The position numbers were made by a program, and so were the translations under genes. The notes below the pieces were generated by a model. The model did no database searches and was not told the DNA's origin. It worked only from the letters and a program-made list of their open reading frames with translations. 64,000 nt of DNA from Agarophyton chilense (lineage: Eukaryota; Rhodophyta; Florideophyceae; Gracilariales; Gracilariaceae), in the NCBI GenBank assembly GCA_030374765.1, contig JARGXX010000138.1, positions 558,001 through 622,000 on the forward strand. Reading direction: 5' to 3'. Shown here in pieces: positions 1 to 63,821 of this stretch. Numbering within the stretch: the stretch's first letter is position 1; each line of letters begins with the position of its first letter.

Positions 1-1596
1 CTTTTGTAATGCTCACACTACTGCAAGGCATTCCTTCTCCGAGACGGAGTAATTCTTCTCGTGGGCGTAGAGCGATCGGGACCAGTACACTACGGTGCGT
101 CTTTCCCAATTGGGTGCAGTTTGAAACAGGGCGCAACCTACTTAGTAGTCGCTGGCGTCCGTATCTCCGGTGAAGGGCCTTCCAGGCTTGGGCAACGAGA
201 GGATCGGGGTGGAGACGACAGAATCCCTAAGAGAGTTGAAAGATTCCGTTTGAACGTGGGTTAAGGGGTCCAGTTTTGGTGGTTGGCCTTTCCGCAAAAG
301 GGCGTTTAACGGTGCAGCCTTGTCCGCAAAATGCGGGATGAATCGTCGGTAGACGTTTGCGAGTCCCAGAAAGGAACGAAGCTCGGTTTGCGTCCGCGGT
401 TCTTTAGCCTCTTTGAGTGACTTAACACGAGTCTCCTCGATTGTAACACGTCCTGGACGGATAACATGGCCGAGATACTTCACGGTGTCCGTGAAGAAAT
501 CACATTTCTTCAACTTCAGAGTGCCACCTGCATCTCGAAGCGTGGTCATTATATCTCTCACATGAGTGAGATGTTTGTCCAGATTATCTGAGAAGACGAT
601 TATGTCATCCAGGTAGACCATGCAGGTACGCCATTTGAAGCGGGTCAATAGGATCTCGATGGCTCGCTGAAAAGTAGCGGGGGCGTTGGTAAGACCAAAA
701 GGCATCCGTTTGAAACTGTAGAGACCGGAGTGACACGCGAAAGCGGTTTTATCCTGGTCTTTCTTCCTTACCGGAACTTTCCAGTATCCTCAATTGGCGT
801 CCAGGGTTGTAAAGACGATGGCGGTGCCCAGCGAGTCAATGTACTCGTCCATTCTTGGGATTGGATACACGTCCTTGACGGTGACGGTATTCAACCGACG
901 GTAGTCGACGCAAAACCTCCAGGAACCATCCTGCTTTGGAGCCAGTACTACTGGAGAAGCTCAGGGCGACTGAACCGGTTCAATGACTCCTGCTCGAAGC
1001 ATTTTATCTACCTGTGTCTTTTCCTCCGCGCGTGCGGCGGGTCCGGCACGGTATGGGTTCTGAGAGATGGGTCGGGTGTCCGGTAGCAAATCAATCCGGT
1101 GTTACGTAGTGGAAATCTCACCAAGGGAGCCGTCCCACGTGGTGGTGAAGTCCCTTAAAAGTTCTCGCAATCGATGGCAGTATAACTCCGGGACGTGGCT
1201 GAGATCCAGGTCGTCGAGTTCTTGGACTGGATCGGGGCGGTCACCACTCGTTGAAACGGGCTGCCTCCCTGATGTTACAGGTTGACCCCCGGGTACCGGC
1301 GATGAAACGGGTTCCGGGCTCTCCCCCTCTTTAGAGTGAACGAGTCCGAGAACTTCAGCTGCGGTCAGCTTTGTCGGCACCATAGAGATGGGGGGCGGCA
1401 TGACGGACCCTATCACTTGGTTCTTCACCAGATAATGGGTTACAGTCCCTATAATGGCGATCAGCACGTGAAGCGGTTGGTTTGGCTCCACATGGACGAT
1501 TCCATTCGCAATTGCGAGGCTGTGCCTGTCATAAAGTGACGACAATGGTTGCAAGACCCGGAGTCCGTGTTGACGGGAGGTTACTTTCACCATCAT
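1..1596 (-). pseudogene. pol of element A (protease tail, RT, start of RNase H)
   Basis: Encodes the end of the protease region and reverse transcriptase of a Ty3/Gypsy element. Visible motifs are MPFGLTNAPATFQRA, the catalytic YLDD box, the RT thumb motif LRSFLGLANVYRRF and, at the window edge, the RNase H start DTDAS. Stops interrupt the fingers region (around 940-1100), just after DTDASDY and again near position 10. The part between 1101 and 706 still reads as RT (DGSWRFCVDYRRLN) but is broken by stops. Unlike element C, the protease tail and the RT N-terminus are here in one frame. The relation to Ty3/Gypsy RT is certain; activity is excluded. Confidence 0.88.
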
Positions 1597-2301
1597 TTAG
1601 GACTCAGGCGGGACGCACAACGACGCTGCGATGCGAAGCTTATTTGATTCACAGTTATCCGGTCTCTGTTCTTGTGCTGCCGGTAGCGGGACATGCTTCT
1701 TCGTGGCACGCCTAAGCGGACGACGAACGATCGGAGTGGACGATCCATCCTCCATCTCGACACGCCGTTGGCGGGGGAAGATCGCTTTGACGAAGCGGTC
1801 GCAAAAGTCGCAACCCAATGTGACTTGGGCGGCTAATTTCCGACATACGACGAAGTCGAGTTTCACCACACGAGCGCCAACGCGGACTACCAGTTCTATG
1901 AACCCCACCGTATCCAACGGTTTGTTGTTCGCGTCAGCGACCTCCGGGACGTGGTCGCGGCGGATCCTAGACTGCAATGCAGGCGGTAACACTTCCTCCA
2001 AGACAAAGTTCGGACCGGCACCGGTGTCTAAGACGGTAAGGTGTCGCACCAAAAACTGGTGCGAAAGGCCAAGGTCAGCATAGACCTTGTAGTTCCTCTT
2101 GGCCATCATCAGAACTCTACCCGGGAACCAGGTATGGGAAACACGTTTCCACGGAAGACGCAGAACACTAAAGTGTTCCGAGTTCAAGTCATTGACGGCC
2201 TCTTTCCTTGAAAGGATTTTGACCGGGGAGCGAGGCTTGGACGCCTCGGGCTCCGTCGACCTCGACTCTGAGGGCTCCCCCCCTTGAGAGAAGACTCCCA
2301 C
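1597..2301 (-). pseudogene. aspartic protease domain of element A
   Basis: Retropepsin-type protease that would process the Gag-Pol polyprotein. The active-site motif is VLDTGAGPNF, followed by the typical hydrophobic stretch ending VTLGCDFCDRF. It aligns along its length with the protease ORF of element C, including the block MAKRNYKVYADLGLSHQF. The frame stops at CVPPES at 1597-1599, exactly where element C continues with VWVTVVTKQIG; the sequence after the stop (from 1596) continues the same protein in the same frame. So one nonsense mutation separates this piece from the RT part. Confidence 0.85.
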
Positions 2302-2490
2302 ATTTAGTTATTCTGGGCCTGCTCCGCCGGAGTCGGCTGCTCAGGACGTTGAGCAGGCAACGCCGGGGCATCAGGTCCAGAAGGTACCGCAGAAGCGGTG
2401 GGGTGACCGACCACGTCGGTGACACAGGAATCCGGTGCAGGTACGACCCGAGCTCGGGGAGGCGACACGTGACGTGGAACATTCGTTCGA

Positions 2491-4345
2491 TCACGGATAT
2501 ACGATGAAATCGGATAGGGCCTCGTAATTGACTACGACTTGTGCCCATTCTCGGAAAGACAACACACATTGTGGAGAAGTATGGCCTGGTTTGTAGCAGA
2601 GATGACAAATCAGACCAGAAGCCGGGGCTGGGTGGCGAGGCTCGGCGAACTTCACCGCGGGGCGCGTATCTCTCCAACCAGGACGCGAAGAGCGGACATT
2701 ACCACTCTCATGTGGGACGCGTGGCGCACGAACGCGACCATTATCCGCATAGAGTAGCGTGTCCTCCTCAATCACGTATTGTTACTCGTCCAAAGTTGAG
2801 GGTAACTCCGTTGTCGTGATGGAATGAACGTCGCTATGGGCTAGCTGCACGTGATCGTAATCCCTTCGAGAGGCCTGTTCGTCGATCATCGAAGCTCACG
2901 GGGTACCCGGTTGTAACATCAACGCTTTTGCGGACCTAACCCTGGATCCAGGAGTACGTGCGCGCAGGGCTTCACCTTCTGCACGAGCGAACTGCACTAG
3001 TTCCAAATACGTGGCTTTAGGTCTATCTTCTCGACGTCGAGCAACAAGAGTCCGGATTGCCGGGTCCAAACCATCGACAAACATGGTAAAACGCTCTTAA
3101 GTGGGGTAAACATTTCCATAGCGGTGGGAGGCCTTGTTAAGGCGCGACGAATAATCGGTTTGTTTCCGACTCGCCTGGCCGTTGGCGAGTGTCCCGCAGG
3201 GCGCGTATAGCCTGCTGAATGGTGGACTTAGTAGCATACGACCTCAGCAGGTACTGAAATGCTTCAGACCAGCATGTGACCCCTCCTTCGGAGGCGCATG
3301 ATGAACCTCTGACGGAGTGATACTAGTCTTCTGCAAGCCCACGTAAGAAGTACGGTAAGGCAATGTAGGCCTGTCCCTCGTTCATTCCAAGGATGTCAGC
3401 TTTTGCGACAAAGCGTGCCAAGAAATCCAACACCAATATTGGGACTTCTCCAGAAAACCACTGGTCTCGTAGTGAGAGCTGCATTCGCATAATGCAGTCC
3501 TTCACTCTTTCCGTACCACGGGGTGCACGATGCAAAGAGGAGTCCTCCAAACGGTAGTACCAGTATGATAAGAGCTTCTCAAAGAGCGAATTGGTCGGTT
3601 TCAGTTCCTTCAAACCTGTGTGCTTCCTTCCCTTCGTGCGGGCGCGGATCACACCATGAGTGGCTGTTGACCACTTAGAGCGTGAGGAACGCTCACGGCG
3701 AGCTACTTCCACCGATGAGTCGAAAGAGTCGGACTCCGAGGATGAAGAATCCGACGGTTTGGGATCCGTGTTCCTTCGCTTCTTTCGAGCCTGGCGGTTC
3801 TCTTCCTTATTTTCCTTGTTGGATACTGCAATCGGCTCGGCCGGATCATTCCCCGACATCAGGGTTTGTTCCAACGTCTCGAGACGGCTTCGGACGCGCG
3901 AGAACTTGTCCACGACGGCCTTGAAGAAGACCGACGGTCCACCAAGGGACTCTAGAATCGAGTTCACATCCGCACGGAGGACACGGAGGTCCTCAGAAAA
4001 ATCCTGTGTAGCAGGGTCGTTTACCTTCTTGCGAAGGGAGTCGAACTCCTCTGCAAGGATGACTTGAGCTTCCCGCGTAGAGCGGAGTTGCTCTTCCACA
4101 GCTGCAAAGCTGGGATGGAGAGTGACATCTCTAGCAGCGGAGAGCATCTGGGCGGCGGCAGACGCCGGTCCTGCTCCACTTGCTGGGGGTGTCGAATCAG
4201 AGACAGGAGGTCTCGAGGTCCTTCAACCTGGTACGCCAGTCGATCCACCGGTATGAGAGCGTGAACGGACTGGGATACGGGATGGTTGCGATGGTTCCAG
4301 TTCACCGGTTTGACTCCGCTTCCTCGGACGGTCTTTGGACGACAT
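2491..4345 (-). pseudogene. gag of element A
   Basis: Structural (capsid/nucleocapsid) protein of the element. I choose the ATG at 4345, which has the same frame as the long 4147-3323 segment; one TGA interrupts the N-terminal part. From N to C: a basic N-terminus, a predicted coiled coil (LRKKVNDPATQDFSEDLRVL), an acidic serine-rich patch, and the capsid region with LYRKLLSYRYYRL-like sequence shared with element C. After the stop at 3323 the capsid continues in pieces (MFVDGLDPAIRTLVARR at 3084-2896) and ends with a zinc knuckle CHLCYKPGHTSPQC at about 2660-2620. Multiple stops and shifts make it non-functional. Confidence 0.8.
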
Positions 4346-9202: not shown

Positions 9203-10116
9203 TGTAGAGCAACGCCCAGTTAGGGGATACTTGAAGATGCAACTCATAGAATGAGGATTGAACCCTCCGAGGGTTATGATTATGATCCCCTCTATGGTGT
9301 GCTGAAGTGGCACTGTTTTCTGGTTATATTTCGCCTATAAGGGAAAATTCGGATGGCCCATGGTTGGATTGGCCCCGTGATACACGTGGCTTAATTTTGG
9401 CACCGAATTTCGGATATTTGTTAGAACGTTGGATTTTTGGGCCCTGGCAGTGGGATCTCCACTTGTATGGCCCTGAGCAGGTGTGCACTACTGTAGAGTT
9501 TAGTTAGTGGGCCCTACTTAGGGAGGCGAGATCTGACAGTCCGAGCTCAGAGTAAATGGTAACCAAGGTTGGTCTTCGATACCTGTAGAGGTTCTTCGTC
9601 GCCATCGTTTCGGCCTTACAACCCGGAACGGGCTCTGGTTAGCAACGCCTGCGTAGGTACACGACTCCACTTGGAGAGTGCCCACGTTTGGGTTCCGTGC
9701 AACCACCCCCTTGGGACCGCTCAGACGACCTGCGTGCACGATACCCCGTGGGGGTTCTGCTTAATTGTTGCGTGCTTTTTGTGTTTCCTTTCGAGGACAG
9801 GTTTTCGCCCCTGTATTGGGTTTCTTTTGTTGTTTCGCCCCTTTTCTGGTTCTCGAGTCCGGTGCCTGTTAGTGCCCGACCCTCGCCCCGTTTTTCCTCT
9901 TCGCCGGATTTTCCCCCATTCTTTGGGATACCCATACCCATTCCCGATCCAACGGTTTCTACCCCTCACCTCCGTCGGTACTGCCGGAATCCCCCGTGGG
10001 AGTTACACCCCACACTACGGGTGGAACGGAGGGCTCTGTCTCTGAGTCTGCCTCCCCCAGGGAGCAAGGCTTCGAACACCTTGAGAGCACTTCCCGTCGC
10101 CGGGTTTTGCTCCACA
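9203..10116 (+). repeat. 5' LTR of element C
   Basis: 914 bp, TG...CA ends, repeated at 19997-20902. It begins TGTAGAGCAACGCCCAG and ends TTTTGCTCCACA. A TATA-like sequence (GGTTATATTTCG, about 9322) precedes a CCTATAAGGG stretch. Several open frames that appear inside the LTR, in both copies, are not conserved as proteins and are treated as chance. Confidence 0.93.
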
Positions 10117-10137: not shown

Positions 10138-10343
10138 CCGTTCTCGGACTTTTGGGTTGGTCATCCACGTGTTGGAATATCTCTTGGAAGAGGAAGCACC
10201 GTCGTGAAGATTTGTTGTAGTGGTCCCCTTTGGAAAGGGTGGAATTGGTTTTTATTTTTGTTTTGTGTTACGTCATCCGTTCTCCGGGAATCTCGTGATC
10301 GAATTTCATCGTTACCCCGAATCGTCGGTGTCGTGTTTGCAGC

Positions 10344-12374
10344 ATGACGCCGCCTACCCGTGGTTCCAGGACTGGATCGAACCGTCAAGCGGATTCAGTG
10401 CCCCCAGCCCCGCCTAGGTCGAAAAGCTCTATTCCCGAAGGTCGGAACGATTCCGGTATCGATCCGGACACTCGGAGAGCACCCTCAGTGGTTTCAGGTC
10501 CTCGAGAGGTCGTGGCTGTGGGCCCAGCTCCAGTGGTGGAGACCCCCTCAGCAGCACCCCGAAGTCGGGCCGACCCTGAATTACAGCGCCTGGAGACTCG
10601 AATTGATATCGCCAACGCGGCTCATATCGAGCTCCTTCAGGAGGTTACTACCCTCCGCCTCAGGGTGGAGGACGCCCAGATGCGGGGAGTCGCCGATGAC
10701 CTTCGTACCCTGCGGAGGGATGTGAACTTCCTTTTGGAAAGCTTTGGTACCCCTGGGGTCTTTATCCAGGAGTACCGGAGCCTCGTGGAGGAACACCGCG
10801 TGCAAGCGGAACGCTTCCGAGCTCGGCTGGACACCCTCGAGGCCATTATCCGTATGGACGGAGACGCAGAAGCCTCGAAGGGTAAACCCGACGTTTCGGA
10901 AGACGAAGAACACCGCTCCGCTAAACGGGACCGCCGCAAGTCAAAGAAGAGGGTTCACCTCCAAGAGGATTTATCGGATTCCGATCCCAATCGCTCGTCA
11001 TCGAGTTCGTCCTCCGAATCTTCGGATAGTGAAGATGAACGCCGTTCATCCCGGGCGACTCGGTCGAAGACTACTTACACCTCTCAAGGGGCAATCCGTA
11101 CCCGGAAGAAGGGTAGGAAACACCTTGGATTAAGGGAGCTGAAACCGAAGAATCCTCTCTATCGGAAGCTGCTATCGTACCGCTATTACCGGTTGGATGA
11201 CCCTTCGCGAGATCGAACATCCCGTGGAACGGGTAAGGTCAAGGACTACATCCAAAGGCTGAGCATCACCCTACAGAAGAGGGAGTTCACAGGAACAGAC
11301 CCAATTCTGGTGCTCGATTTCCTTGCGAGGTTCGTCCAGGAGGCTGACATCCTCGGTATGAGTGAAGCGCAAGCGTATCTTGCATTACCCTATTTCTTAA
11401 AGGGGATGGGTGAAGACCAGTTCAACTCCGTCCGTGGATCATCTCGAGCCTCGGAAGGGGGAGTCACGTGCTGGCCCGAAGCGGTGCAGTACCTCTTGAG
11501 GTCATACGCTACTGGAAATGAGATTCAGGAAGCAATCCTTGCATTAAGGGATACGCAGCAGAAGCCGATGGAAACCGAAACGGTGTATTCAACTCGATTG
11601 AATAAAGCGTTTCACCGATGCGGGAATGTATTCCCCGCCGACGAGAGATGCTCCATGTTTGTGGATGGTTTGGACCCCTCGATAAGGGCATTGGTTGCCC
11701 GACATCGGGAAGAGAAGCGCAAGCTGACCTACTTGGAATTGGTTCAGTACGCCCAGGCTGAGGGGGATAATCTCCGTGCCCGGCAGAACCGAAAGAGTCG
11801 GCCGACAAGTGCACTCCTCGCCGATGGAGGTAACTCGTCTTTGTCACTCGCAGGAGGCCCGGCCCCTGTGGGGGTCAATGATAACATTCACTTCATGGGA
11901 AGTAACCCCGAATCTATGGGTACGTCTGAGTTGCCGTCGACATCCGCTCCGACTACGGATGAAGACCCTGCGCTCTATACCCACGGATGGAGGGTGCCAG
12001 CCGCATCGCTACCTTTTGCGAATACCGCTGCTCGCTTCTCTCGCCCCACATGGAGGGATACAGCACCACGTCGCGTGGATTCACGTCCACAACCGAACCC
12101 GGCAGAGCTGATGTGCAATTTGTGTTACCTCCATGGTCACAGAGCACCAGACTGCACATTTCCCCTGCGGGAGGGTTCACGAATTATCGCTCAGTACGAG
12201 GCTCTGACCCCTGAGGAGAAAGCTCGAGTCCCGAGTAGGTCCTATGACGAACAAAGGATACTGCGAGCTCACCTTGCTGACGGGGATACAGAACTTGTAC
12301 CCGCGAACGGGGAACAACCGGTCCCCTTCGAGGCAGCTGCACCGAATTCGGTGGGGTCCGCTTCGAAAAACTAA
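10344..12374 (+). CDS. gag: Gag protein of element C
   Basis: 676-codon structural protein that would form the virus-like particle. The start ATG at 10344 is the first in the frame after the primer site. Domains in order: disordered Pro/Ser/Arg-rich N-terminus (1-75), coiled coil (about 80-175), Ser/Asp/Glu-rich patch with SSSSSSSESSDSEDE (about 210-240), basic region, capsid core (about 260-490, with LYRKLLSYRYYRL and MFVDGLDPSIRALVARHR), and one zinc knuckle CNLCYLHGHRAPDC near residue 590 (CX2CX4HX4C). It ends GSASKN at a TAA. The protease frame lies at -1 and is open well before this stop, so Gag-Pro could be made by frameshifting. Homologous gag remnants occur in elements A, F and G. Confidence 0.9.
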   Translation: MTPPTRGSRTGSNRQADSVPPAPPRSKSSIPEGRNDSGIDPDTRRAPSVVSGPREVVAVGPAPVVETPSAAPRSRADPELQRLETRIDIANAAHIELLQEVTTLRLRVEDAQMRGVADDLRTLRRDVNFLLESFGTPGVFIQEYRSLVEEHRVQAERFRARLDTLEAIIRMDGDAEASKGKPDVSEDEEHRSAKRDRRKSKKRVHLQEDLSDSDPNRSSSSSSSESSDSEDERRSSRATRSKTTYTSQGAIRTRKKGRKHLGLRELKPKNPLYRKLLSYRYYRLDDPSRDRTSRGTGKVKDYIQRLSITLQKREFTGTDPILVLDFLARFVQEADILGMSEAQAYLALPYFLKGMGEDQFNSVRGSSRASEGGVTCWPEAVQYLLRSYATGNEIQEAILALRDTQQKPMETETVYSTRLNKAFHRCGNVFPADERCSMFVDGLDPSIRALVARHREEKRKLTYLELVQYAQAEGDNLRARQNRKSRPTSALLADGGNSSLSLAGGPAPVGVNDNIHFMGSNPESMGTSELPSTSAPTTDEDPALYTHGWRVPAASLPFANTAARFSRPTWRDTAPRRVDSRPQPNPAELMCNLCYLHGHRAPDCTFPLREGSRIIAQYEALTPEEKARVPSRSYDEQRILRAHLADGDTELVPANGEQPVPFEAAAPNSVGSASKN

Positions 12375-12376
12375 AC

Positions 12377-13375
12377 TTGGGAGTCTCCCCTGCGGGGGGG
12401 GCGTCTTCTAAGCCGGAGTTGAAGACGCCCGAGGCGCCCCAGCTTCGCTCCCCAGCTGTGACTATCCTTTCAAGGAGAACGGCTGACACCGAAGTTAACT
12501 CGGGATACTTTAGTGTCCTCCGTCGCCCGTGGATACGGTCCCGTGATCTCCGTATTCCGGATCGAGTTATGGTAATGGCCAAGCGGAATTATAAGGTATT
12601 CGCCGACTTCGGCCTGTCCAACCAGTTTATGGTTCGTCAAATATCTGTCCTGGATACAGGAGCCGCTCCTAACTTAATTCATATTGAATTGTTACCCTCA
12701 CTGCTCCGGGTTCAAGTTCGTACCGGTCCACGTTTGGATATCACCGATGCGAACAACAACCCGCTACGGACACTGGGTCCAATTTCCCTCATGGTGAGGT
12801 TAGGCTCCTATCTCGTTCAACTGGAATTTATTGTATGCAAGTCACTTGCAGCACCGTTCATACTGGGTTGTGACTTTTGCGACCGCTTCGTGGAAGCCAC
12901 CCGTCCTCGGAATAGAACTGTGGAACTCGAAGACGGGTCTACGATCCCAATCGTTCGTAAACCCTTACAGGGAGCAGCGCGAACACGCGTCCCTCTCCCC
13001 GTCGCGCAGAAATCTGTGAAGAAGGACCCGGTGTCTACACGGGTAAAGGTTGCGAAGTCAGTGGCTATCCCGCCAGAAACCCAGGTTTGGGTCACAGTTG
13101 TTACCAAGCAAATTGGTGTGCATGTGGTACAACCGAACCTGTCTCTGTATACGCGGCGTCAAATCGCCCTTGCGAATGGGGTTGTCTCCGTGGAACCATA
13201 TAAACCTTTCAAGGTTTCGGTAGCCAACTTTGGAAAGACAACGCAGCATTTGCTCAAACACAAGATCCTGGGTTCTGTTCTTCCACACCCGCATGCGGTC
13301 GTACCTACAAAGATCTCTATCGCAGAGGGCCTTGGTGTGGCGGACCCTAACGAGGGGAGGACACTGCCGAAATAG
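12377..13375 (+). CDS. aspartic protease (Pro) of element C
   Basis: Retropepsin-like protease that cuts Gag and Pol. The active-site motif is VLDTGAAPNLI and the C-terminal lobe motif FILGCDFCDRF. The frame is -1 relative to gag and stays open upstream across the gag stop, so the true protein probably starts inside gag by frameshift; no ATG lies at the left edge of this segment. The C-terminal third (VWVTVVTKQIGVHVVQPNLS onward) is a linker seen also in elements A, F and G. It ends TLPK at a TAG. The pol frame is again -1 and is already open upstream of that stop. In elements A and G this linker and RT are in one frame. Confidence 0.85.
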   Translation: MGVSPAGGASSKPELKTPEAPQLRSPAVTILSRRTADTEVNSGYFSVLRRPWIRSRDLRIPDRVMVMAKRNYKVFADFGLSNQFMVRQISVLDTGAAPNLIHIELLPSLLRVQVRTGPRLDITDANNNPLRTLGPISLMVRLGSYLVQLEFIVCKSLAAPFILGCDFCDRFVEATRPRNRTVELEDGSTIPIVRKPLQGAARTRVPLPVAQKSVKKDPVSTRVKVAKSVAIPPETQVWVTVVTKQIGVHVVQPNLSLYTRRQIALANGVVSVEPYKPFKVSVANFGKTTQHLLKHKILGSVLPHPHAVVPTKISIAEGLGVADPNEGRTLPK

Positions 13376-13482
13376 CGGAAGACGGTGAGCATACGACTGC
13401 AGCTCCACACGCTGAACACTTTAAACCTCAGGAGGTTACGGCCCCTATCACAGGAGCAGACCAGACGGATCCTGTTCAGGAA

Positions 13483-16400
13483 TTGGAAAAATGGGATCTC
13501 AACCATGTACCCGCATCTCATCGGGAGAAGCTGAGGCACATGCTTCGTGAATTTACCCCCATGTGGGATGGTTCCCTTGGAACTATTGGGATTACAGAAC
13601 ACCGCATCGACTTGTTACCGATCACTCGGCCTATTGCCCAACACCCTTACAGGGCTGGACCGAAAGCTCGGGATGAGGAGAAATCTCAGGTGGAGAAGAT
13701 GCTTAAAGCGGGCGTAATTGAACCTGCCCAGTCCGCTTGGGCCTCACCAGTGGTGTTAGTTCCGAAACCGGATGGATCGTGGCGTTTCTGCATCGATTAC
13801 AGACGCCTGAACGAGGTAACCATTAAGGATGTGTACCCGATCCCTCGGATAGACGAATACATGGACTCCCTTGGGAGCGCTACTGTTTTCTCTACCCTCG
13901 ACGCCAATTCGGGCTACTGGCAAGTCCCTATTAGGGAGGAAGATCGAGACAAAACGGCGTTCGTGTGTCATCAAGGACTTTTCCGATTCCGGAGGATGCC
14001 TTTTGGGTTGACAAATGCCCCCGCAACGTTTCAACGGGCGATAGACATTCTGTTGGTTCCCTTCAAGTGGAGGACGTGTCTAGTGTATTTAGACGACATT
14101 ATCGTCTTCTCCAACAACCTGGATGACCACCTCGAACACGTCAGGGACGTAATGAAGATACTCCGCGACGCGGGAATCACCTTGAAACTCAAGAAGTACG
14201 AGTTTTTCACCGATTCGGTTAAGTATCTGGGTCATATCATCCGTCCCGTACAGCTTTCAATCGATGAAGTACGAGTGAAATCCTTGAAGGAAGCAAAACA
14301 CCCGAAATCTCAAACGGAGTTGCGATCCTTCTTAGGTCTGTGTAACGTGTATCGCCGATTCGTCCCGAATTTTGCGGATATTGCCACCCCCCTCAACAGG
14401 CTCCTGACGAAGGGACAACCAGTTGAACTGGAACCTTTTTGCGACGCGGAAGTGTCTGCCTTCACGGCACTGGTGAATGCCGTAACATCACCGCCAATCT
14501 TGGCTCTACCCAATCCTGGGCTCCCTTACGAAGTGGACACCGATGCTAGTGCAAACCAAGTAGGGTGTGCACTGTTCCAATCCTCTGAGAATGGTGAACG
14601 TCACCCTATTGGGTACTGGTCACGTTCCCTGAATGTCCATGAAAGGAACTACTCGGTCTCCGAGAAAGAATGTTTAGCCGTCGTGTGGGCCTTAGCTAAA
14701 CTTCGCCACTATCTGATGGGTACTCGTTTCAAAGTCCATACGGACCACGCATGCTTGCGTTGGCTCCTGGAGATCTCCGAACCCTCGGGCCGCCTTATGC
14801 GCTGGCGTCTCCGACTGTCGGAATTCGACTTTGAGATCCTGTACAAGAAAGGGAAGCTGAACACTCAGGCTGATGCACTATCCCGCTTGGGAACAACAGC
14901 GGAAACGGAACCCTACGAGGACGATGACATCCCATGCTTTATGGTATCGGACCTCGAGGGAGGAGCTCAACTGCTGACGGATGATGTTTGTGACGATATA
15001 CTCGCCAACGAGAGTCTGGATTCGCCGACCGGCTCTTTTATACCTATCTCTCCAGAGGAGATGATACGCGAGCAACAGCTCGACCCATTCTGTACACGGA
15101 TTCGGGCTCGCCTCAACGGAGGATTTCAGTTACCTTTCGAGGACGACGATCAGGGTTACCTAATCAGGACCGTTGGACCTCGCCCGAGGATAGTGGTGCC
15201 GCACACCCTACAACAGAGGGTACTACACCTCACTCACTATTTGATGGTTGGCGCCCACCCCGGGGGAAGAAAACTGTATCTCACGTTGAGAAGGGACTTT
15301 TACTGGCCGGCAATGGCATTCGATTGTTATGCCGTCAGACGGGCCTGCACCAATTGCGCCAAGAATGACGTCAAACTTCGGAAGCACTCTAAGAAGTTGA
15401 CGCTGTTCCCGGCACGGGCTCCACTCCAATTCGTGGCCATAGACATCCTAGGGGAACTTATTAGAACGCCCCGAGGTCATCGGTATCTGCTTGTCATTTC
15501 TGACAGATTCTCTAAGTTAACGAGAACTGTGCCACTGAAGCGGATCACCGCCGCTACCGTCGCGCAAGCGTTCTTGACCCATTGGGTGTTCGTATATGGA
15601 CCGCCGGTGCAGTTGTTATCCGACAACGGAGGGCAATTCGCATCAAAGTTCTTTCAGGATGTATGTCGAATCCTTGATGTAAGGAATTTATTTGTTACTA
15701 CGTATCACCCTCAGGGAAATGGCCAGGTGGAGAGGTTTAACCGCACGATACTCAACGCTTTGAGATCGTATGTTGCGGATCACCCCAAAAATTGGGACTT
15801 GTACATAGACGCTATCACGTATGCATACAACACCCAGGTACATCGGGTTACATCTTTATCCCCATTCGAACTGGTACTGTCGAGGACACCGCCGCCGGTC
15901 GCCATCGAGGCCCAACCGACGCTGTCAACGTACCCGTCACCAAGATTGTACCGAGAAGCCTGGAAGGAGTGGCTTACGAAGATGGTGCCGATAGCCCGGA
16001 AAGCAATGGACAAAGCTCAACGCGCCTACAAGAAGGTCTTTGACAATCGGGTTCGAAAACCTCTACCTCAGGTGGAGCCCGACGACTTCGTCTTCCTTCG
16101 AAAGGAATACTACAATCCTGAAAAGGAACGTAGGCACAAGCTTTCGCCAATTGTGGACGGACCCTATCGTGTGGTTTCTGTAGACCCGGACACGGTGGTA
16201 TTGGATATTGCTAACCGCCACGAACGGATCTCCAGGGACCGCATCACACGAGCGCCCAACCCAAATGTGGAAGTGGTGCCGGCACCAACGCCCTCCACAG
16301 GGGATGATTCAACGGAAGTTAACCCGTCAGGCGGAGATTCGAACACCCGCCCCGTTATACTTCCGCACCCGGAACGTGGTTTAACCGACCTACCGGAAAC

Positions 16401-16908
16401 TTCGGACACTCCCGAACCTGGGCCCGCTCCCTCAAGGGCCCAGTCAACGAACTCTTACAGAGTTACTCCCCCACCGGAGTTAATCAAGCCTCATGGCTCT
16501 CCGCCTAAGGAGGGGGAGGAGGACTTAGTTCCTTCGCAGGACGATGTTTCGGCGTCAGCCAGTCGCCCTAACAGGGAATCTAGTTCTCAGAGTGAGACGG
16601 CGAGCCCGACCGAGCCGGCGACAGAGAACTCACAACCCCAGCGTATGGGTATCGACATCACCGCCGACCCAGCCGAGCACGACGTCAGAAAAGATGACGA
16701 AAACCCGCCTAGGGAGAGTCGTGTGGAGAACTCCGCACCCGGAACGCCTATAGAGCCGACGATCACCCGCCGCCGCGGAAGAGACACTGAGGTGTCGCAC
16801 ACTCAAACCCCGCTTTCTCGGAAACGAGCTGTGTCAGCGGACCCGCACGGGAAAGATCTCGACGACGAGGTTGACCAAATTTGGCTCTCCGTCATGGAAT
16901 GGGAATAG
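13483..16908 (+). CDS. pol: Pol: reverse transcriptase, RNase H, integrase of element C
   Basis: 1141 codons from a TTG at the left edge; the frame is open further upstream to before 13375, so the real N-terminus is probably made by frameshift from protease. RT: MPFGLTNAPATFQRA and YLDD at residues 202-205. RNase H: DTDAS at about 352. Integrase zinc domain: H...H with ACTNC (about 590-630). Integrase core: D654, D714, E750, with exactly 35 residues between the last two (DD35E). A GPY/F-type module follows (LSPIVDGPYRVV). The last 200 residues are Pro/Ser/Thr/Glu-rich and look disordered. The order RT-RNaseH-IN makes it Ty3/Gypsy. No internal stop, so potentially functional. Confidence 0.93.
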   Translation: MEKWDLNHVPASHREKLRHMLREFTPMWDGSLGTIGITEHRIDLLPITRPIAQHPYRAGPKARDEEKSQVEKMLKAGVIEPAQSAWASPVVLVPKPDGSWRFCIDYRRLNEVTIKDVYPIPRIDEYMDSLGSATVFSTLDANSGYWQVPIREEDRDKTAFVCHQGLFRFRRMPFGLTNAPATFQRAIDILLVPFKWRTCLVYLDDIIVFSNNLDDHLEHVRDVMKILRDAGITLKLKKYEFFTDSVKYLGHIIRPVQLSIDEVRVKSLKEAKHPKSQTELRSFLGLCNVYRRFVPNFADIATPLNRLLTKGQPVELEPFCDAEVSAFTALVNAVTSPPILALPNPGLPYEVDTDASANQVGCALFQSSENGERHPIGYWSRSLNVHERNYSVSEKECLAVVWALAKLRHYLMGTRFKVHTDHACLRWLLEISEPSGRLMRWRLRLSEFDFEILYKKGKLNTQADALSRLGTTAETEPYEDDDIPCFMVSDLEGGAQLLTDDVCDDILANESLDSPTGSFIPISPEEMIREQQLDPFCTRIRARLNGGFQLPFEDDDQGYLIRTVGPRPRIVVPHTLQQRVLHLTHYLMVGAHPGGRKLYLTLRRDFYWPAMAFDCYAVRRACTNCAKNDVKLRKHSKKLTLFPARAPLQFVAIDILGELIRTPRGHRYLLVISDRFSKLTRTVPLKRITAATVAQAFLTHWVFVYGPPVQLLSDNGGQFASKFFQDVCRILDVRNLFVTTYHPQGNGQVERFNRTILNALRSYVADHPKNWDLYIDAITYAYNTQVHRVTSLSPFELVLSRTPPPVAIEAQPTLSTYPSPRLYREAWKEWLTKMVPIARKAMDKAQRAYKKVFDNRVRKPLPQVEPDDFVFLRKEYYNPEKERRHKLSPIVDGPYRVVSVDPDTVVLDIANRHERISRDRITRAPNPNVEVVPAPTPSTGDDSTEVNPSGGDSNTRPVILPHPERGLTDLPETSDTPEPGPAPSRAQSTNSYRVTPPPELIKPHGSPPKEGEEDLVPSQDDVSASASRPNRESSSQSETASPTEPATENSQPQRMGIDITADPAEHDVRKDDENPPRESRVENSAPGTPIEPTITRRRGRDTEVSHTQTPLSRKRAVSADPHGKDLDDEVDQIWLSVMEWE

Positions 16909-17049: not shown

Positions 17050-17458
17050 TTTATGTGGCACACGTCGAATGGCACCGAGCCAATCAAAAGGCTCTGACGA
17101 CCAACCGTCGCGCAAACCGCCTCCGTCGCACGGCGCGTTGCACCAGAGCAACATTCGTCCCCGTAGCTCGGGTTGACGTTGAAGTCTTATCCCCCTGAGA
17201 TTGGAGACGCCACCGCGTCGCGGTTTCTCAACCGTCACAGAATCTAAGAACACCGTTGTTATCGGGAAGATCTCAGCTTTAAGAAGAACCCAAAACTGGT
17301 CCGTTTTGACTCCGTAGACGGAAGTTACAACGTAGCCCACCGGCCACTCGGCGCCGTTTGGACGAAGTGCTGAGACCCGCTTGCAACACGGAAAAGAACC
17401 CACAGGGGTGTGTCTAGACCCTACGTTAACACCCTCAAGGGACCTTGAGCGTTCCAAG

Positions 17459-17698
17459 ATGGAAGAGAAGCCCGAACAGGGAAAAGTGTACCCGCAGGAA
17501 TTCGTTATCGATCGCATCGGGCGTCACATCTACACCCCCGAGGGAGAAGTTCGCTACCAAGTCCGATGGTACGGATTCTTGCCTGAGGAGGATACAGTGG
17601 AACCCATTGAGCACCTTCCGAGGTCTAAGGTTTTATCCTATCACCGACGCGCTCGGGTAACCTTGCCTCCAAATCTGGATCGTGCCCAAGTCGGGTAA
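17459..17698 (+). CDS. free-standing chromodomain ORF of element C
   Basis: 79 codons from the ATG at 17459; the frame is open upstream to about 17340. The protein contains a chromodomain: FVIDRIGRHIYTPEGEV, RYQVRWYGF, and PEEDTVEPIEHLP, which correspond to the beta strands and the WEP-like helix start of chromodomains. In chromoviruses such domains sit at the C-terminus of integrase and guide integration to chromatin. Here the domain is 550 bp beyond the pol stop and in another frame. It might be translated separately, or be joined to pol by splicing; I see no decisive splice sites. Element G has the counterpart at 60888-61120. Confidence 0.7.
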   Translation: MEEKPEQGKVYPQEFVIDRIGRHIYTPEGEVRYQVRWYGFLPEEDTVEPIEHLPRSKVLSYHRRARVTLPPNLDRAQVG

Positions 17699-17870: not shown

Positions 17871-17996
17871 AATGAAAAAGGAAAAGAAGACCCACGAAGG
17901 GAGAAAGATGAAGAAGAAGATGAAGAAGATCCTAAGAAGGAAGAAGAAGATAAGTAGAAGTTAAGATCCTAGGAAGGAAGAAGAAAGGAAGTTATG
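17871..17996 (+). repeat. purine-rich low-complexity tract
   Basis: About 125 bp almost free of pyrimidines (runs of GAAGAA, AAGAAGAAGA, GGAAGAAG). It lies between the chromodomain ORF and the 3' end of the antisense ORF, i.e. between two converging coding regions. Element G has a similar tract in the same place (61193-61277). Confidence 0.8.
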
Positions 17997-18058: not shown

Positions 18059-19915
18059 CTACGGAAAGCCCGAGGAGGCACCCGCCCCACCGTTGGGATT
18101 CTGACCCTGATGGTACGCCGAGGCAAAAGCCAACATCTGGCTAACATCCGTCATACCCGGGGGAATCGGAATGCCTGCGTTCACGAGGCCTTGTCGCACA
18201 GTATCCGCTTGCGGAGTGGCAACCGGCGCCTGCGCAAGGGTGTTCACACCCCACCCGGGGGGAGCAGATGAACCGCCGCCGGATGCATTCGCCGCCGCAG
18301 CTGAGGTCGTTCCAACTGGTTGGAAGGGTGCAGATGGCTCCACAGGGAGTACTCCACTAGGAGCTGGCACTTCGTTATCCAACGCTGGATCGTCCAGGTC
18401 TACTGGAGGCTCGTAGTCGTAATCGTCGGTATAAATGAACCCCGTCGGGTGTCCAACCGGCATCGGTCGAGGCGAGTCAATCAGCGCCCGTGCTTGCGCC
18501 GCGCTGATGCTAACCCCTTCGGAGGGATTGTAATAGACCCAGTTACCGGAGCCCGGATCGTACCGGCCAGGAGACTTGTCTCGCGCGGATCCTTCCCCTG
18601 CGGGCTGATTTGCCACTGGAACTCGATCCCATTGGGTGTTGTCGATCACGTCCAAGATTGGATACAGGTCCTGCACGTTGCTGGCCGAACCCAACGCTGG
18701 GACAAAGTCGATCTGACACATGATGGTCCGTAGCATCGGAGGAATATACCAGATACGGAAATGGTCATGAGCATCCCAGAAGAGGTGCGCCGCTACGCGG
18801 GCTGCCCACTCAGCTGCAACGAGGGCCCAGTATCCCGAGTTCGGGTTGTGCATCAAACGAGACCCGATATAGTAGATACATGGGGGCAGTTCAGCAAAGC
18901 ACCTTCGGGGGACCTCGACCTTACTCCACCAAGCTGGGAGGGGCACGAATCGCCCAACCTTCGCCGTGTTACGGATACGCTCCAGTTCCACGTGAGGATA
19001 CGGGACAAGGAACCCGAAACGGGAGCGCGAGCGGCGCTCGAAGCGCACTCGTCAATCGAACCCATATTGGGTAAACTGCCGCTGAAGGTACCTGAATTCA
19101 GCCCTAAGGATGGGACGACTCCATTGGAGTATATCTTCTCGGAGAGGAAAACCCGGTCCGCGGAACTCGGCTTCGGGAAAGGCTGCCAAGTTATCCCCGT
19201 AGGAGACCTCACCGTACGTGCGGTAATAGGCGACATCGAACCCGTACTCCGGGGGAACCAGATGGTCAAAGCGTGACCTCTCCAATCGCTGGTAGGCCAG
19301 AGCCGCCATCGCTGCGCGCGCCTTGCCCAGGGATTCCCCGCGACTGCGGTATAGATACTGAGGCTCTATGGCTACCCGCGCCTTCCAATCGGGAGAACGT
19401 ACAACCTCAACAGGTAGGCCACCCGGCATTAAGCCGTCCTCCACGTAGGAGTCGATGAGTTCATCGTCGCGAACTGCTGTCGGATGGAACCACGAAGCGC
19501 GGGAATATATCACCGGATCGGTAAGGGGACTCCACCTTCGAAAGGATTCGTTTGAGGTCCAACCTCTGGAGTTTTCTACCAAGGGCATCGCATGAGCGGA
19601 GTTCCACGCCACCGCGGTGATGTCCAAATCGTCCTGAAGATGTCGGTTGACCGCCGAGGTGGAAGGTTCGGTACCTGACGGAGCCGCATCTAAACCGGAG
19701 AAATATCCACCCTGCTGGGGAGCTTCGTTGTCCGCCGGCGCGGAGGCCGATGGCCCCGAGAGTGGGTTGATGACGTATGGGTTCATTCCCTTGAGAGGGC
19801 TAGTCGAAACCGCTGCTGCGAGAAGTTGCGTATCGCCGAAAGTCGGAGGAGTAGAAGAAAGTTGTACCGATGTGCCGGTTTTGTGGCGATCCTCAGAAGT
19901 GGTGAAGGACCCCAT
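18059..19915 (-). CDS. conserved antisense ORF of element C (unknown function, one TGA)
   Basis: About 618 codons on the strand opposite to gag-pol, located between pol and the 3' LTR. The ATG at 19915 is the first in the frame after a TAG. One TGA at 19052-19054 interrupts an otherwise single frame; 18059 is a TAG. N-terminal 100 residues are Ser/Thr/Pro-rich. The central 350 residues look globular and aromatic-rich (ELIDSYVEDGLMPGGLP, PILRAEFRYLQRQ, CFAELPPCIYYIGS, LFWDAHDHFRIWYIPP). The last 190 residues are Pro/Ala/Gly/Asp-rich. No membrane segment, zinc motif or nuclease motif is visible. Element G carries a full-length homologue in the same place. I recognise no family. Its start is only 82 bp from the 3' LTR, so the LTR would have to promote it in antisense. 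Confidence 0.8.
18203..18236 (+). repeat. 34-bp direct repeat, copy 2
   Basis: Second copy of 17016-17049, one mismatch (C to T). Here it falls inside the antisense ORF, encoding part of its Ala/Pro/Gln-rich C-terminal region. Confidence 0.85.
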
Positions 19916-19982: not shown

Positions 19983-19996
19983 TAAGGAGGGGGAGA
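19983..19996 (+). other. polypurine tract of element C
   Basis: AAGGAGGGGGAGA directly before the 3' LTR (TGTAGAG). This is the expected primer for plus-strand DNA synthesis. Confidence 0.8.
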
Positions 19997-20902
19997 TGTA
20001 GAGAAACGCCCAGTTAGGGGATACTTGAAGATGCAACTCATAGAATGAGGATTGAACCCTCCGAGAGTTATGATTATGATCCCCTCTATGGTGTGCTGAG
20101 GTGGCACTGTTTTCTGGTTATATTTCGCCTATAAGGGAAAATTCGGATGGCCCATGGTTGGATTGGCCCCGTGATACACGTGGCTTAATTTTGGCACCGA
20201 ATTTCGGATATTTGTTAGAACGTTGGATTTTTGGGCCCTGGCAGTGGGATCTCCACGTGCATGGCTCTGAGCAGGTGTGCACTACTGTAGAGTTTAGTTA
20301 GTGGGCCCTACTTAGAGAGGCGAGATCTGACAGTCCGAGCTCAGAGTAAATGACAACCAAGGTTGGTCTTCGATACCTTTAGAGGTTCTTCGTCGCCATT
20401 GTTTCGGCCTTACAACCCGGAACGGGCTCTGGTTAGCAACGACTGCGTAGGGACACGACTCCACTTGGAGAGTGCCCACGTTTGGGTTCCGTGCAACCAC
20501 CCCCTTGGGACCGCTCAGACGACCTGCGTGCACGATACCCCGTGGGGGTTCTCCTTACTTGTTGCGTGCTTTTTGTGTTTCCTTTCGAGGACAGGTTTTC
20601 GTGGGTTTCTTTTGTTGTTTCGCCCCTTTTTTTGGTTCTCGGGTTCGCTGCCTGTTAATGCCCGACCCTCGCCCCGTTTTTCCTCTTCGCCGGATTTTCC
20701 CCCATTCTTTGGGATACCCATACCCATTCCCGATCCAACGGTTTCTACCCCTCACCTCCGTCGGTACTGCCGGAATCCCCCGTGGGAGTTACACCCCACA
20801 CTACGGGTGGAACGGAGGGCTCTGTCTCTGAGTCTGCCTCCCCCAGGGAGCGAGGCTTCGAACACCTTGAGAGCACTTCCCGTCGCCGGGTTTTGCTCCA
20901 CA
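19997..20902 (+). repeat. 3' LTR of element C
   Basis: 906 bp, matching 9203-10116 with scattered substitutions and a few small deletions (one in the region corresponding to about 9810-9825). It ends CTCCACA; the next bases GTTTTTTGC are flanking DNA. The adjacent antisense ORF starts 82 bp upstream and reads away from the LTR. Confidence 0.93.
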
Positions 20903-26360: not shown

Positions 26361-26772
26361 TGTTATGAGTTTATATACTTGCATGGAAAGAACTATTTCT
26401 TGGAATTCTATATTGATTTTTTATTGTTTTTTTGTTTAGAATTTGGACTTGCTGGAATATAGTGATGTAGAATAACGTAGGCTTCTATTGTTGGACTATT
26501 CTATTTGACTGCTAAGTACTATAACTACCTAATGCAGTACGCCTACTTCATATTTTAAAAAAGTGTATATAAGCGCTTCTGGAGTCGCACTGGCTCTCTC
26601 TTCCTCCTCTGCCAAGTGCAGATCGAAAAGAGTGCCTAGAAGTGCCTGCCCGACAGAAGCACCTGTTAATCAAAGAATTGAATTGTTTTAATTAAATTAC
26701 ATTTGCATCATTGCACCCATTACAGTAATTAGTAAGTTAAATACATACAAACCTGAACACCCAATTGCTACA
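26361..26772 (+). repeat. 5' LTR of element D
   Basis: 412 bp, TG...CA. Core promoter TATATAAG at 26566-26573, about 200 bp before the LTR end. Repeated at 32669-33069. The primer site TGGTAGCATC begins at 26775, 2 nt after the LTR end, and its first seven bases fit initiator tRNA-Met (3' end GCTACCA). Confidence 0.92.
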
Positions 26773-26811
26773 ATTGGTAGCATCGCTTTGCAATACTAAC
26801 AAAAATTTACA

Positions 26812-27663: not shown

Positions 27664-27694
27664 AAAAATATTGAGCTGATTATTATTGTGTAAA

Positions 27695-28521: not shown

Positions 28522-28663
28522 AAATAATGCGCTAGCCAACTGTATGTTAGCGCGCCCATTTAAGTTATTTAATGAATGAAATAATACAGAAAAAGACACA
28601 AAAATTATAAAAGATGAAACACAGAAAACTTAATATAAAGTATTTACCTGTACATCTTTCGAA

Positions 28664-29140: not shown

Positions 29141-29276
29141 GAGAATGATATACCATATTATAGTTAAGTCAAATAGGGATGAAGTGGATCCCAAGTTAAA
29201 TTCGGGTATCAAAGAAGAAGAGGATATCCAATTACGATAATTATTAAGTGAATACCAAATTGTTTTCCCGAAAGAG

Positions 29277-32122: not shown

Positions 32123-32262
32123 TCATCCCGGATTACGCCCGTTTGAGTCATGGAATATCCTTTTGCCGTCATATAGTTATTGGATGATTAGTGCAAACCT
32201 GGTTTCTACTCTTAAAGGAGAATGAAGTTGATCAGGAACGTATAGTATGGAATTTGTTTCAC

Positions 32263-32613: not shown

Positions 32614-32668
32614 GAAAAACTGATTACGTTTAATCGAGGACGATTAAGGATTTTAAAGGAAGAGTAGT

Positions 32669-40293: not shown

Positions 40294-40364
40294 GATGGCT
40301 AATACTTTGCTGCCACACAGACTGCTCCTTTTTCGAGAGAGACACAGTGGTGTGATGAAACGTT

Positions 40365-40372
40365 CTTATATA
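40365..40372 (-). promoter_or_regulatory. TATA box of membrane-protein gene copy 1
   Basis: TATATAAG on the minus strand, 72 bp before the ATG; the predicted transcription start about 30 bp downstream would give a short leader. The identical box is present at copy 2. Confidence 0.75.
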
Positions 40373-45177: not shown

Positions 45178-45185
45178 TATATAAG
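45178..45185 (+). promoter_or_regulatory. TATA box of membrane-protein gene copy 2
   Basis: TATATAAG, 72 bp before the ATG at 45257, identical in sequence and spacing to copy 1. Confidence 0.75.
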
Positions 45186-53694: not shown

Positions 53695-54196
53695 TGTAGT
53701 GTTTTACTACTCTCTACATACTGATGCAATATTTTTCGTCTAATTACGATGAAACACTTAGGTGAGTGCAACAGCTGTGATGAAGTTATGAAGCGGCATC
53801 CCGCAGATAGCCAGCGAGGTGGGATGTTACACGTAGGATCTCGTTCTGCCCGGGCGTATACGATTCGACCCTTTGTAGGGAAATACGGGATCGGCAACGG
53901 CACATAAGGCACAGAGGGGAGCGCCGACTTCAAAGTGAAGTAGAGAACAACGGGTTTACCCACTGTCCTGTTCCTTGTTCAGGATTCCTTAACCGGAGAT
54001 CCGGACGACCTACAACAAGTAGTTGTCCGTTCTATAGTAACAACCACCCTCATTGGCGAGTGGGGCCTTACAACCCCCATTTTAGCTCGCTCGTGTTGTG
54101 CTCTACAACATCTTACCCTTAGCCATAAGCACTCATTCCGAAGCCCCGAACACTGTCGCAGGTGTCTCCTCTCTCTCCGTTAGAGCGGATACTACA
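53695..54196 (+). repeat. 5' LTR of element G
   Basis: 502 bp, TGTAGTG...TACTACA. It shares AAGCGGCATCCCGCAGATA and many other blocks with 63166-63821 but lacks 151 bp present in the 3' copy. A possible primer site TGGAATTCGATCTCG begins at 54202; it is not the tRNA-Tyr-like site of A and C. Confidence 0.9.
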
Positions 54197-60887: not shown

Positions 60888-61120
60888 GTGAACCGGAACC
60901 TCGCGCCATCCGCCGAAACGTTGGAAAAAGCCCAGGAATACGTCATAAATCGCATCATCTATCACGGCGAAGACGACAACGCCCACAGACTACTGTATTG
61001 TATCCGTTGGTACGGTGTTCCTCCGGAAGCGGATACTTTGGAGCCTAGAACTCATATTCCGCCCTCGTAGGTTGTGCGTTATCATCGTTGCATTCGAGTA
61101 CCACTCCTTGTGGAGATCGA
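60888..61120 (+). pseudogene. chromodomain ORF of element G
   Basis: EYVINRIIYHGEDDNAHRLL, YCIRWYGVPPEADTLEPRTH and, after one TAG, VVRYHRCIRVPL correspond segment by segment to the element C chromodomain (FVIDRIGRHI, YQVRWYGFLPEEDTVEP, VLSYHRRARVTL). As in element C it lies some 400 bp downstream of the recognisable end of pol. The TAG at 61068 truncates it. Confidence 0.75.
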
Positions 61121-61192
61121 CGCCGAGATAATTGGTTTTCTAGAAGCGATTTAGCGGAGCGAAAGCTATTCCCCTTTTTCTTCAGAAGGACG

Positions 61193-61277
61193 ATGTGAGA
61201 GAAAAAGAAGAGAAGATTCGAGAAGAAGAAGAAGTACTTAAGGAAACGTGAAGTCACGGAAGCAGAAGAATTTGGTT
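61193..61277 (+). repeat. purine-rich tract of element G
   Basis: GAGAGAAAAAGAAGAG and GAGAAGAAGAAGAAG runs, nearly free of pyrimidines. It lies between the chromodomain ORF and the 3' end of the antisense ORF, the same place as the tract at 17871-17996 in element C. Confidence 0.75.
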
Positions 61278-61417: not shown

Positions 61418-63010
61418 TTATCCCAACGGTGCCAAAAAGGGATCCTCCGCATCGCTCGGTTGTGGGGCGAACCTATGATAGTATCCCATCGACGGATGGA
61501 AACCCGATGTCGCAGCCGTTGGTGGCAAAGCAGCCGTCACAGGTGCAGTACCAGATAGTTCAGGTTCATCATCGAAATCGATTTCCGCATCAGCACCTGG
61601 AGCCTCTTCATACTTCTGATCTGCAAACTCAGAAGGTGTGGACTCATACACATATCCAGTTCGCTGATTTGAAGGGAACTTCTTAAGATTCGCACGAAGG
61701 TCACGGGCCTGATCAGACTTTACTATCTGGCTGGTACAAGGATTAAACCATACAAAATCTTAAACATTAGCTGTGCGTCGCGGTTAGTGATCTCGATGAT
61801 GCACCCTTCTGCCTCTAGCTCATTGATCCAATGGAACCCCATGCCAGTCGATACTGTCGATCAAGTCTACCAAGAGTAGGAATTCGTCATAATTTGAACG
61901 TGACCCCAACACAAGTTAAAGATCCAGTTGTCTCGCATATCTCCGCGCTGTTGGCGACATGTACCAAACTCGATAGGTATTGTATGCATCCCAGAGGATA
62001 TACGCTTCCATCTTGGCAATGAACTCGGAGAACACGACCGTTTAGTATCCTGAGAACGGATCGTTAATCAATGCGGAACCGATATAGGTTATGGCAGGAG
62101 GAAGCTCCACCAGACATCCACGAGGTCTCTCGATCTCCGCCCAGTGTTTTGGATGCGCGATATAGCGTCCGACGCGAGCATTCCGCCTAGTTCGATCAAT
62201 CTCGATCATTTGGTATAAAACCAGGTACACCAAGTGGGATCTCGTACGTCGTTCCCAACGAGGATAATTCCAATAAGGAATGTCTCTTTTGTGGTGGAAG
62301 CAGAATTCCGCACGGAGAAAGGGTCGGCGAAAGCAGAGTGCCGCATCGCGTACATCGCATAAACCGCGCCATTTGTCGACGTCGACTTCGTATAAGGACT
62401 CGATGTACAAGCATCCTTCGCCATTCCTGCGAGCCATCCAGGGATCTAGATGCCAATCTCCAGTGAGACCGAACGTGCTAATGAAAAGTTGTAGACGCTG
62501 GTATGTCAGCTTCGTGAACCGAGTTCGGGCTTCGTCCATACTCTCATTGGTATAACAGGCAATCGCGTTATCTGGCAAAGCACAGTTAGTAGTTTAATCG
62601 TGGCTGCGGATAGTCGCATAAGGAATTCCATCTGGTAGGTAGCCACTGAAGATGTACCGGCTGATCAACGCGTCATCGCCAAGAGCGACTGGGTCAAACC
62701 AGGGAGCCTGCGCGAAGAGGTCAGTATCGCCGAAAGGGTCTCGTCTCTCAAAGCTCGTTGGATATGGATAGCTGCGTTGAGACCAACGAGACGGCGCTCG
62801 AATGATCCCAGTAGAGGATACATAAGCCGCATTCGACATCACACCTGAAGTCGGTGGTTGTAAGGGCAAAGAGTGGAAACCCACGCGAGGAGACCGCATT
62901 GATCGAAAGACCAAAGGCGCCGCAGCTTGCGAGTTGAAGCCACTGCTGTCGTAAGGACCCTCTGAGGGTACGTCTCCGTTGTTGGAGTTGTGCGGCTCGA
63001 AAGAAGGCAT
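61418..63010 (-). pseudogene. antisense ORF of element G, homologue of 18059-19915
   Basis: ATG at 63010, 155 bp from the 3' LTR. One frame can be followed for 531 codons to 61418 with six stops (first at 62594, then 62042 and four between about 61910 and 61750) but no frameshift. Matches to element C run through the whole protein: ALISRYIFSGYLPDGIP, PFLRAEFCFHHKR, CLVELPPAITYIGS, ILWDAYNTYRVWYMSP, VDLIDSIDWHGVP and QARDLRANL with TGYVYES. The N-terminus is shorter than in C and the C-terminal tail is again low-complexity. Lesions are substitutions only, as in a protein-coding gene that decayed recently relative to its divergence. Confidence 0.78.
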
Positions 63011-63165: not shown

Positions 63166-63821
63166 TGCGTAGTATTCTACTACTCTCGGAAAACCGGTGG
63201 AATATTTTCTGTCTAAGAACGATGATACTCATAGGTGAGTGCAACAGCTATGATGAAGTTATGAAGCGGCATCCCGCAGATACCCAGCAAAATGGTATGT
63301 TATACGTGGGATCTCAGCCTGCAACGACGCATCCGATTGGACCCTTTGTAGCGAAATACCGGATTGGAAACGGCGCATATAGTGGGTAGCCACGTGGCAA
63401 CCAAGCCTACCCTTCGTAGACGGAAGCCCATTTAGGGTTCGTTGTCCCGTACTGTAGAGGTGTTAATTGAAAAACCAAGTTATATCTAGATATTATTATG
63501 GGCGGGGCTCACCTCTGTGCACAGTACATAAGGCATAGAGGGGAGTGCCGACTCCAAAGTAAAGCAAAGAACAACGGGTTTACCAACTGTCTAATTCTTT
63601 GTTCAGGATTCCTTAACCGGAGATCTGGAAGATATACAACAAGTGGTTGTCCGTTTCATAGTAACAACCACCCTCATTGGCGATTGGGGCCTTACAACCC
63701 CAATTCTAGCTCGCTACGGTTGTGCTCTACAACATCTTTCCCTTAGCCACAAGCACTCATTCGGCAGTCCCAAACACTGTTGCACATGTCTGCTTTCTCT
63801 CCATTAGAGCGGGTATTACAG
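63166..63821 (+). repeat. 3' LTR of element G
   Basis: 656 bp, TGCGTAGTATTC...TATTACA, followed by the target duplication GCAGT. It contains 151 bp (63380-63530) absent from the 5' LTR. Confidence 0.9.

Follow-up and report, generated by a model that had tools for sequence, protein, structure and literature searches.

A selected antisense gene between pol and the 3' LTR in chromoviruses of the red alga Agarophyton chilense

Antisense frames in elements C and G

Element C is a Ty3/Gypsy chromovirus: reverse transcriptase (RT), RNase H, integrase, chromodomain and LTRs are all present (Table 1) in the window, by which we mean the whole stretch of 64,000 nucleotides analyzed here. Within the 10 bases flanking it on each side, no matching target-site duplication was found. 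Placed between the chromodomain and the 3' LTR, antisense to gag-pol, is a long minus-strand frame of 618 codons plus stop in the reading of the ORFs, the start codon of which lies 81 bases from the 3' LTR. The initial annotation had reported this frame, together with a homologue in element G and a start 80-160 bp from the 3' LTR in both elements. All of this is borne out by the present analysis, which adds an in-frame stop that interrupts the window copy in element C and had gone unmentioned; the homologue in element G is one frame, free of frameshifts, with six in-frame stops and a start codon about 155 bases from its 3' LTR. In a tblastn search of the window, the element C protein matches element G at E 5e-45 with its left half and at E 1.5e-16 with its right half.

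Table 1. Positions of the antisense frames and of the features of their elements
Feature	Element	Position	Strand	Remarks
Antisense accessory frame	C	18059..19915	-	618 codons + stop, one in-frame stop
In-frame stop splitting the window copy	C	19052..19054	-	
5' LTR	C	9203..10116	+	TG...CA; 96.6% identity to 3' LTR over 915 columns
3' LTR	C	19997..20902	+	
Polypurine tract adjoining 3' LTR	C	19984..19996	+	upstream of the antisense frame's start
gag frame	C	10299..12371	+	Retrotrans_gag, under cut-off
Protease frame	C	12281..13372	+	gag-asp_proteas, weak
RT, RNase H and integrase frame	C	13351..16905	+	
Chromodomain frame	C	17336..17695	+	Pfam Chromo E 6.8e-06
Purine-richest 90 bases	C	17871..17960	+	0.86; between chromodomain and antisense frame's end
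Homologous antisense frame	G	61418..63010	-	six in-frame stops
Purine-richest 90 bases	G	61186..61275	+	0.79; same position as in element C
Chromodomain	G	60933..61136	+	
5' LTR	G	53696..54196	+	extent = BLAST alignment
3' LTR	G	63169..63820	+	extent = BLAST alignment
gag-pol part (only this part in window)	A	1..4222	-	
Antisense gene, outside window	A	G000:C135:553218-554951 (= L039:5218-6951)		open over 595 codons

A third carrier, element A, reaches into the window with its gag-pol part only, and its RT is 70% identical to that of element C. No relative of the antisense gene was found by tblastn in the window elements D and E. Their RTs are 34-39% (D) and 23-29% (E) identical to those of six carriers of the gene, which share 54-89% among themselves; the RT tree does not split the carriers from the pol at locus L041, which may or may not belong to a carrier (support 51). 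Element D is itself a Gypsy element with LTRs and RT (26361-33069), its RT being 39% identical to that of element C.

Other repeats are also found in the window. An inverted repeat (39185-41473 and 44077-46365) has arms of 2289 bases that are 98% complementary and lie 2603 bases apart. Inside and next to these arms run frames of 423 and 415 codons, of which the one at 39022-40293 has no match in Pfam up to E 0.01. A fragment of a Copia-type reverse transcriptase (RVT_2) occupies 5748-6656 on the minus strand. No Rfam family was found in the window or in the loci L040 and L043. Elsewhere in the genome, three 5.8S genes stand about 17.27 kb apart (G000:C65:8279-42976), and another rDNA copy has long AT-rich spacers. 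Nine matches to light-harvesting proteins, two of which belong to a single gene, are in line with a red-algal source; one of the proteins is closest to chains 62 and 32 of PDB entry 7y5e, from the red alga Porphyridium.

Distribution and position of the gene in the genome

The genome searched comprises 79.8 Mb in 135 contigs, and since the searches score the best candidates only, all copy counts are lower bounds. With the left half of the element C protein as query, the best 122 of 1601 candidates were scored, at 92% identity or more; with a central piece of the element G protein the best 150 of 1362, at 67% or more; and with the element A protein the best 75 of 1893, at 85% or more. The C, G-like and A groups of the gene are only 31-40% identical to one another, so that the scored places differ and number at least 347 in all, each found through the gene itself. 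Homologues in other elements, the lack of which the initial annotation had regarded as an argument against a selected gene, are plentiful in this genome and fall into three groups. By a hand count of copies with no stop in the match and a frame of at least 595 codons, 54 of 122 C copies, 14 of 150 G-like copies and 8 of 75 A copies are open, summing to 76 of the at least 347 scored places; the frames of the open copies all span 600 codons or more except that of element A itself (595).

The position of the gene was examined at 43 loci (L001-L043), among which L001 and L009 are the window copies, while L016 and L043 represent a single place. At 38 of the 43 the chromodomain is found where expected, on the strand opposite to the gene; in L015, L021, L023, L027 and L041 the match is absent, or at another place or strand. 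By strict coordinates, 32 of the 43 loci have a sense-orientation LTR match on the start side of the gene, and at 7 further loci such a match overlaps the outermost gene alignment. The suggestion that the gene sits antisense beside a 3' LTR is sustained for most loci; at L012, L016, L039 and L043, searches using the LTRs of elements C and G found no match on the start side. All loci except L039 were picked through the antisense gene itself, and elements that have lost it are not seen among them, so the loci give no count of elements without the gene. At L017, a C-type LTR (2716-3546 with the element turned to plus, 94.6% identity) lies beside a G-like antisense gene, a mix that may reflect a nested insertion or a recombinant.

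Coding capacity and selection

Five copies were picked for being open: their antisense frame is free of stops, the remaining five frames contain 6-32 apiece, and a first-order Markov simulation gave no open sequence in 2000 for any of these copies. These counts bear on whether the frame is the shadow of a conserved sense frame, or open by chance: in the window copy a frame of 171 codons does run opposite it in the sense direction, but with 6-32 stops in each sense frame of the five open copies we consider this explanation to have practically no chance of being right and have rejected it, in agreement with the view taken initially.

Substitutions were assessed as N/S ratios scaled by a null in which the same substitutions are scattered at random. 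Between subgroups (the pairs G/L040, G/L042, L040/L043 and L042/L043) the ratio is 0.42-0.44 for the gene and 0.36-0.40 for pol, and L040, L042 and L033 each give 0.43-0.45 against L041; with the C copy as reference, L040/L041 becomes 0.55 instead of 0.45, and L042/L041 0.56 instead of 0.43. Recent pairs are near neutral, and pol behaves alike: 0.82 for L040/L042 (pol 0.92) and 0.67 for G/L043 (pol 0.71), while L043/L041 and G/L041 stand at 0.88 each. At deeper distances (without L041) the ratios rise to 0.64-0.68 for the gene and 0.45-0.59 for pol, a rise common to both as saturation would give. The initial annotation had held that a dN/dS near 1 between several copies would argue against a selected gene; the comparisons between subgroups speak for selection, whereas those between recent pairs, at 0.67-0.88, do not, and the pattern is the one expected if selection maintains the gene in the active lineage while dead copies decay. 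Across 34 G-like copies from 33 places, pooled N/S is 0.77 in the N-terminal part, 0.48 in the core and 0.63 in the C-terminal part, and the pairwise medians are 0.81, 0.62 and 0.82, with single pairs reaching 1.97; most of the G-like loci had been chosen through the core. Among eight C copies (28 pairs) the NG86 dN/dS is 0.29-0.74, with a median of 0.46, values biased downward as the copies were picked as best protein matches; those of L008 itself are raised by its being out of frame at the start.

Across the 15 pairs that do not involve L041, pol identity and gene identity have a correlation of 0.94 (rounded values); L041 was dropped since its pol had been read from a different, minus-strand element beside the gene, and with L041 included the value is 0.58 over 21 pairs. 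The gene has a lower identity than pol in 14 of the 15 pairs, and overall the antisense gene is conserved about as well as the other proteins of the element. The many copies, the fixed position and the purifying selection between subgroups identify the frame, almost certainly, as a selected antisense gene, and the conservation at protein level proposed at the outset, seen in the tblastn matches as well as in the ratios between subgroups, is confirmed.

A conserved core without recognized relatives

An alignment of seven open copies from the three groups delimits a conserved core of some 350 residues, spanning roughly residues 140-490 in the C protein. Within it, the arginine-rich stretch from R291 to Y306 is nearly invariant, with R291, R295, R297, S298, R299, G301, L303, V304 and Y306 the same in all seven copies. 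Toward its N terminus the protein is, for the most part, rich in P, G, S, T, Q and N, and the part after the core is acidic. A membrane-spanning stretch usually has a mean hydropathy of at least 1.6; the highest mean over 19 residues is 0.93-1.49 in four copies, and no stretch reaches that threshold. This bears on a structural or env-like particle protein, which the location between pol and the 3' LTR would suit, as it is that of env: the antisense orientation and the lack of a clear membrane span led us to reject an env-like ORF, and such a protein seems very improbable.

The initial annotation recognized no family in the frame, and in the searches made here none was found: there is no Pfam family at its cut-off, no match to the profile of the protein among PDB sequences, and, up to E 10, no match to TRP28 (Transposase_28, PF04195) in any of 7 copies. 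Below threshold, PF04195 itself matches the genome once (E 0.05, C115:1611170), outside the listed places of the gene. Three further candidates were rejected: a SAP-like C-terminal helix pair (three C-terminal pieces match nothing in Pfam up to E 10, and the single piece compared with the PDB matches nothing there), a WW-like stretch (E 0.12, far under its cut-off), and kinship with gag, protease or pol of element C (nothing better than E 0.29, blastp with four copies). AlphaFold models of the window sequences, from alignments of three and four rows, have a mean pLDDT of 34.4 and 47.4; in the second, a C-terminal helix pair (residues 281-320) reaches 80-92 and the first ten residues 73, with the rest lower. 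A Foldseek search with this second model returned 42 matches at E up to 10 and none at 0.001 or below, which says little given so poor a model.

As to origin, the gene may have been captured from a host or a virus, which would be compatible with its being an accessory gene of the element. One long intronless frame, unlike the gag, protease and pol of element C and with no relative in Pfam or PDB, is what a capture could leave behind, but no single-copy host relative appears among the best 75-150 places scored per search, and scans of prokaryote and viral contigs gave no relative; on balance we regard a capture as unlikely.

Features of the spacer

In 7 of 7 gene-bearing elements, the 90 bases richest in purines within the stretch examined (0.76-0.86) fall into the spacer that separates the chromodomain match from the gene's end; the count includes L041, in which the chromodomain match is on the unexpected strand. 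In element D, without the gene, the purine maximum is 0.71 and lies inside the pol region. Diverged G-like copies share, on the antisense strand just past the stop of the gene, a conserved noncoding block beginning GTCAACACC, which in a spacer alignment with six usable rows (the seventh, L010, having been taken from the wrong flank of its gene) is common to G-like and B copies (B being L033, L040 and L042). The spelling was counted by eye in 12 of the 43 loci (L016 and L043 being one place), with a variant in L035 and three further matches to the pattern elsewhere in the loci; it was not found in C or A copies. The block starts 25-28 bases after the last sense codon in L033, L040, L041 and L043 (positions on the antisense strand include L040:3716, L043:6569 and L041:6711), and three B copies have an AATAAA within it. 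In our reading, block and purine tract mark where an antisense transcript would end; alternatively, the purine tract could be a second primer site for plus-strand DNA. Upstream of the gene, no TATA-like site was found at a common distance. At locus L040, an array of tandem repeats of about 31 bases (L040:3807-4072) lies within the spacer, after the chromodomain and ahead of the gene's end.

The conserved noncoding block would also suit a reading in which antisense RNA is the acting agent, by way of the convergent transcripts that this layout would yield and that have been proposed for the additional antisense ORFs of plants (PMC7264820). The antisense frame is, however, the only frame with no stops, and the ratios between subgroups indicate selection on the protein, so that an RNA effect is conceivable in addition to the protein and not instead of it; RNA as the agent is, in our estimate, distinctly improbable.

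A probable accessory gene of chromoviruses

We consider it likely that this selected, protein-coding antisense gene, lying after pol and before the 3' LTR, serves its chromodomain-bearing Ty3/Gypsy lineage as an accessory gene. The antisense mRNA would start in or beside the 3' LTR, which the initial annotation had suggested as a bidirectional promoter, cross the gene, and end past its stop but short of pol, in the conserved block and the tract that is pyrimidine-rich on this strand and purine-rich in the sense. Its product, a soluble protein, would act in the nucleus or on the nucleic acid of the element, a role suggested by the layout, the arginine-rich motif and the plant parallels, and might regulate expression or aid the pre-integration complex. 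The gene thus probably helps or regulates its element; a regulatory role in particular is a possibility to which we give somewhat less than even weight.

An antisense gene, brtn, was reportedly described by Zhao et al. in 2011 in the Boty elements of Botrytis cinerea. The layout is already known, since antisense genes occur in plant and fungal elements: the initial annotation had mentioned the plant cases, and the literature agrees and adds fungal elements (PMC7264820). Boty-like elements combine a chromodomain with the additional gene brtn (PMC4227169, PMC8365987), which is antisense and follows pol, ahead of the 3' LTR (PMC7264820); in layout they resemble the elements described here, in a fungal rather than an algal host. 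The plant elements Retand, Grande and RIRE2 likewise carry an antisense gene in this position (PMC7264820, PMC11963269); in these plant elements tandem repeats are frequent in this region, as in L040, and the antisense ORF is conserved nearly as well as the other element proteins. Retand elements are, however, not chromoviruses and mostly encode TRP28. Membership in Retand was rejected, as the elements described here have a chromodomain and PF04195 was not found in 7 copies of their antisense protein.

The frames of elements C and G are antisense and lie between pol and the 3' LTR, and with the chromodomain on the expected side and strand in 38 of 43 loci they resemble in layout the antisense additional ORFs of LTR retrotransposons (aORF-3R), a class whose features include presence in most copies of a family, antisense transcription and a nuclear protein. 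Deltaretroviruses (HTLV) also have an antisense protein gene driven from the side of the 3' LTR, an analogy of layout only (PMC7264820, PMC11963269). Other additional ORFs are found in bdelloid rotifers (PMC5408684). For the plant antisense genes of LTR retrotransposons, both function and origin are called unknown in PMC7264820 and PMC11963269. Antisense genes of oomycete elements, which the initial annotation had also mentioned, did not come up in a term search of one paper, and no such gene in red-algal Gypsy elements is among the matches listed from open-licence titles and the openings of abstracts. What appears to be new is that the layout occurs in a chromovirus of a red alga, where no link was found from its protein family to any other.

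With at least 347 places in a genome of 80 Mb, at varied divergence, many of them open and with a clear core, selection, expression and binding can be tested in this family. Should the protein prove unrelated to both TRP28 and brtn, this layout would have had more than one origin. A more speculative extension, which we think rather doubtful, is that red-algal chromoviruses evolved a two-promoter layout separately from flowering plants and fungi, with gag-pol expressed from the 5' LTR, an unrelated antisense regulator from the 3' LTR, and the two units separated by a conserved purine tract that would end the antisense transcript or prime plus-strand DNA. Were this so, three distant lineages would share one layout filled by unrelated proteins, and antisense regulators would answer a recurrent need of Gypsy elements.
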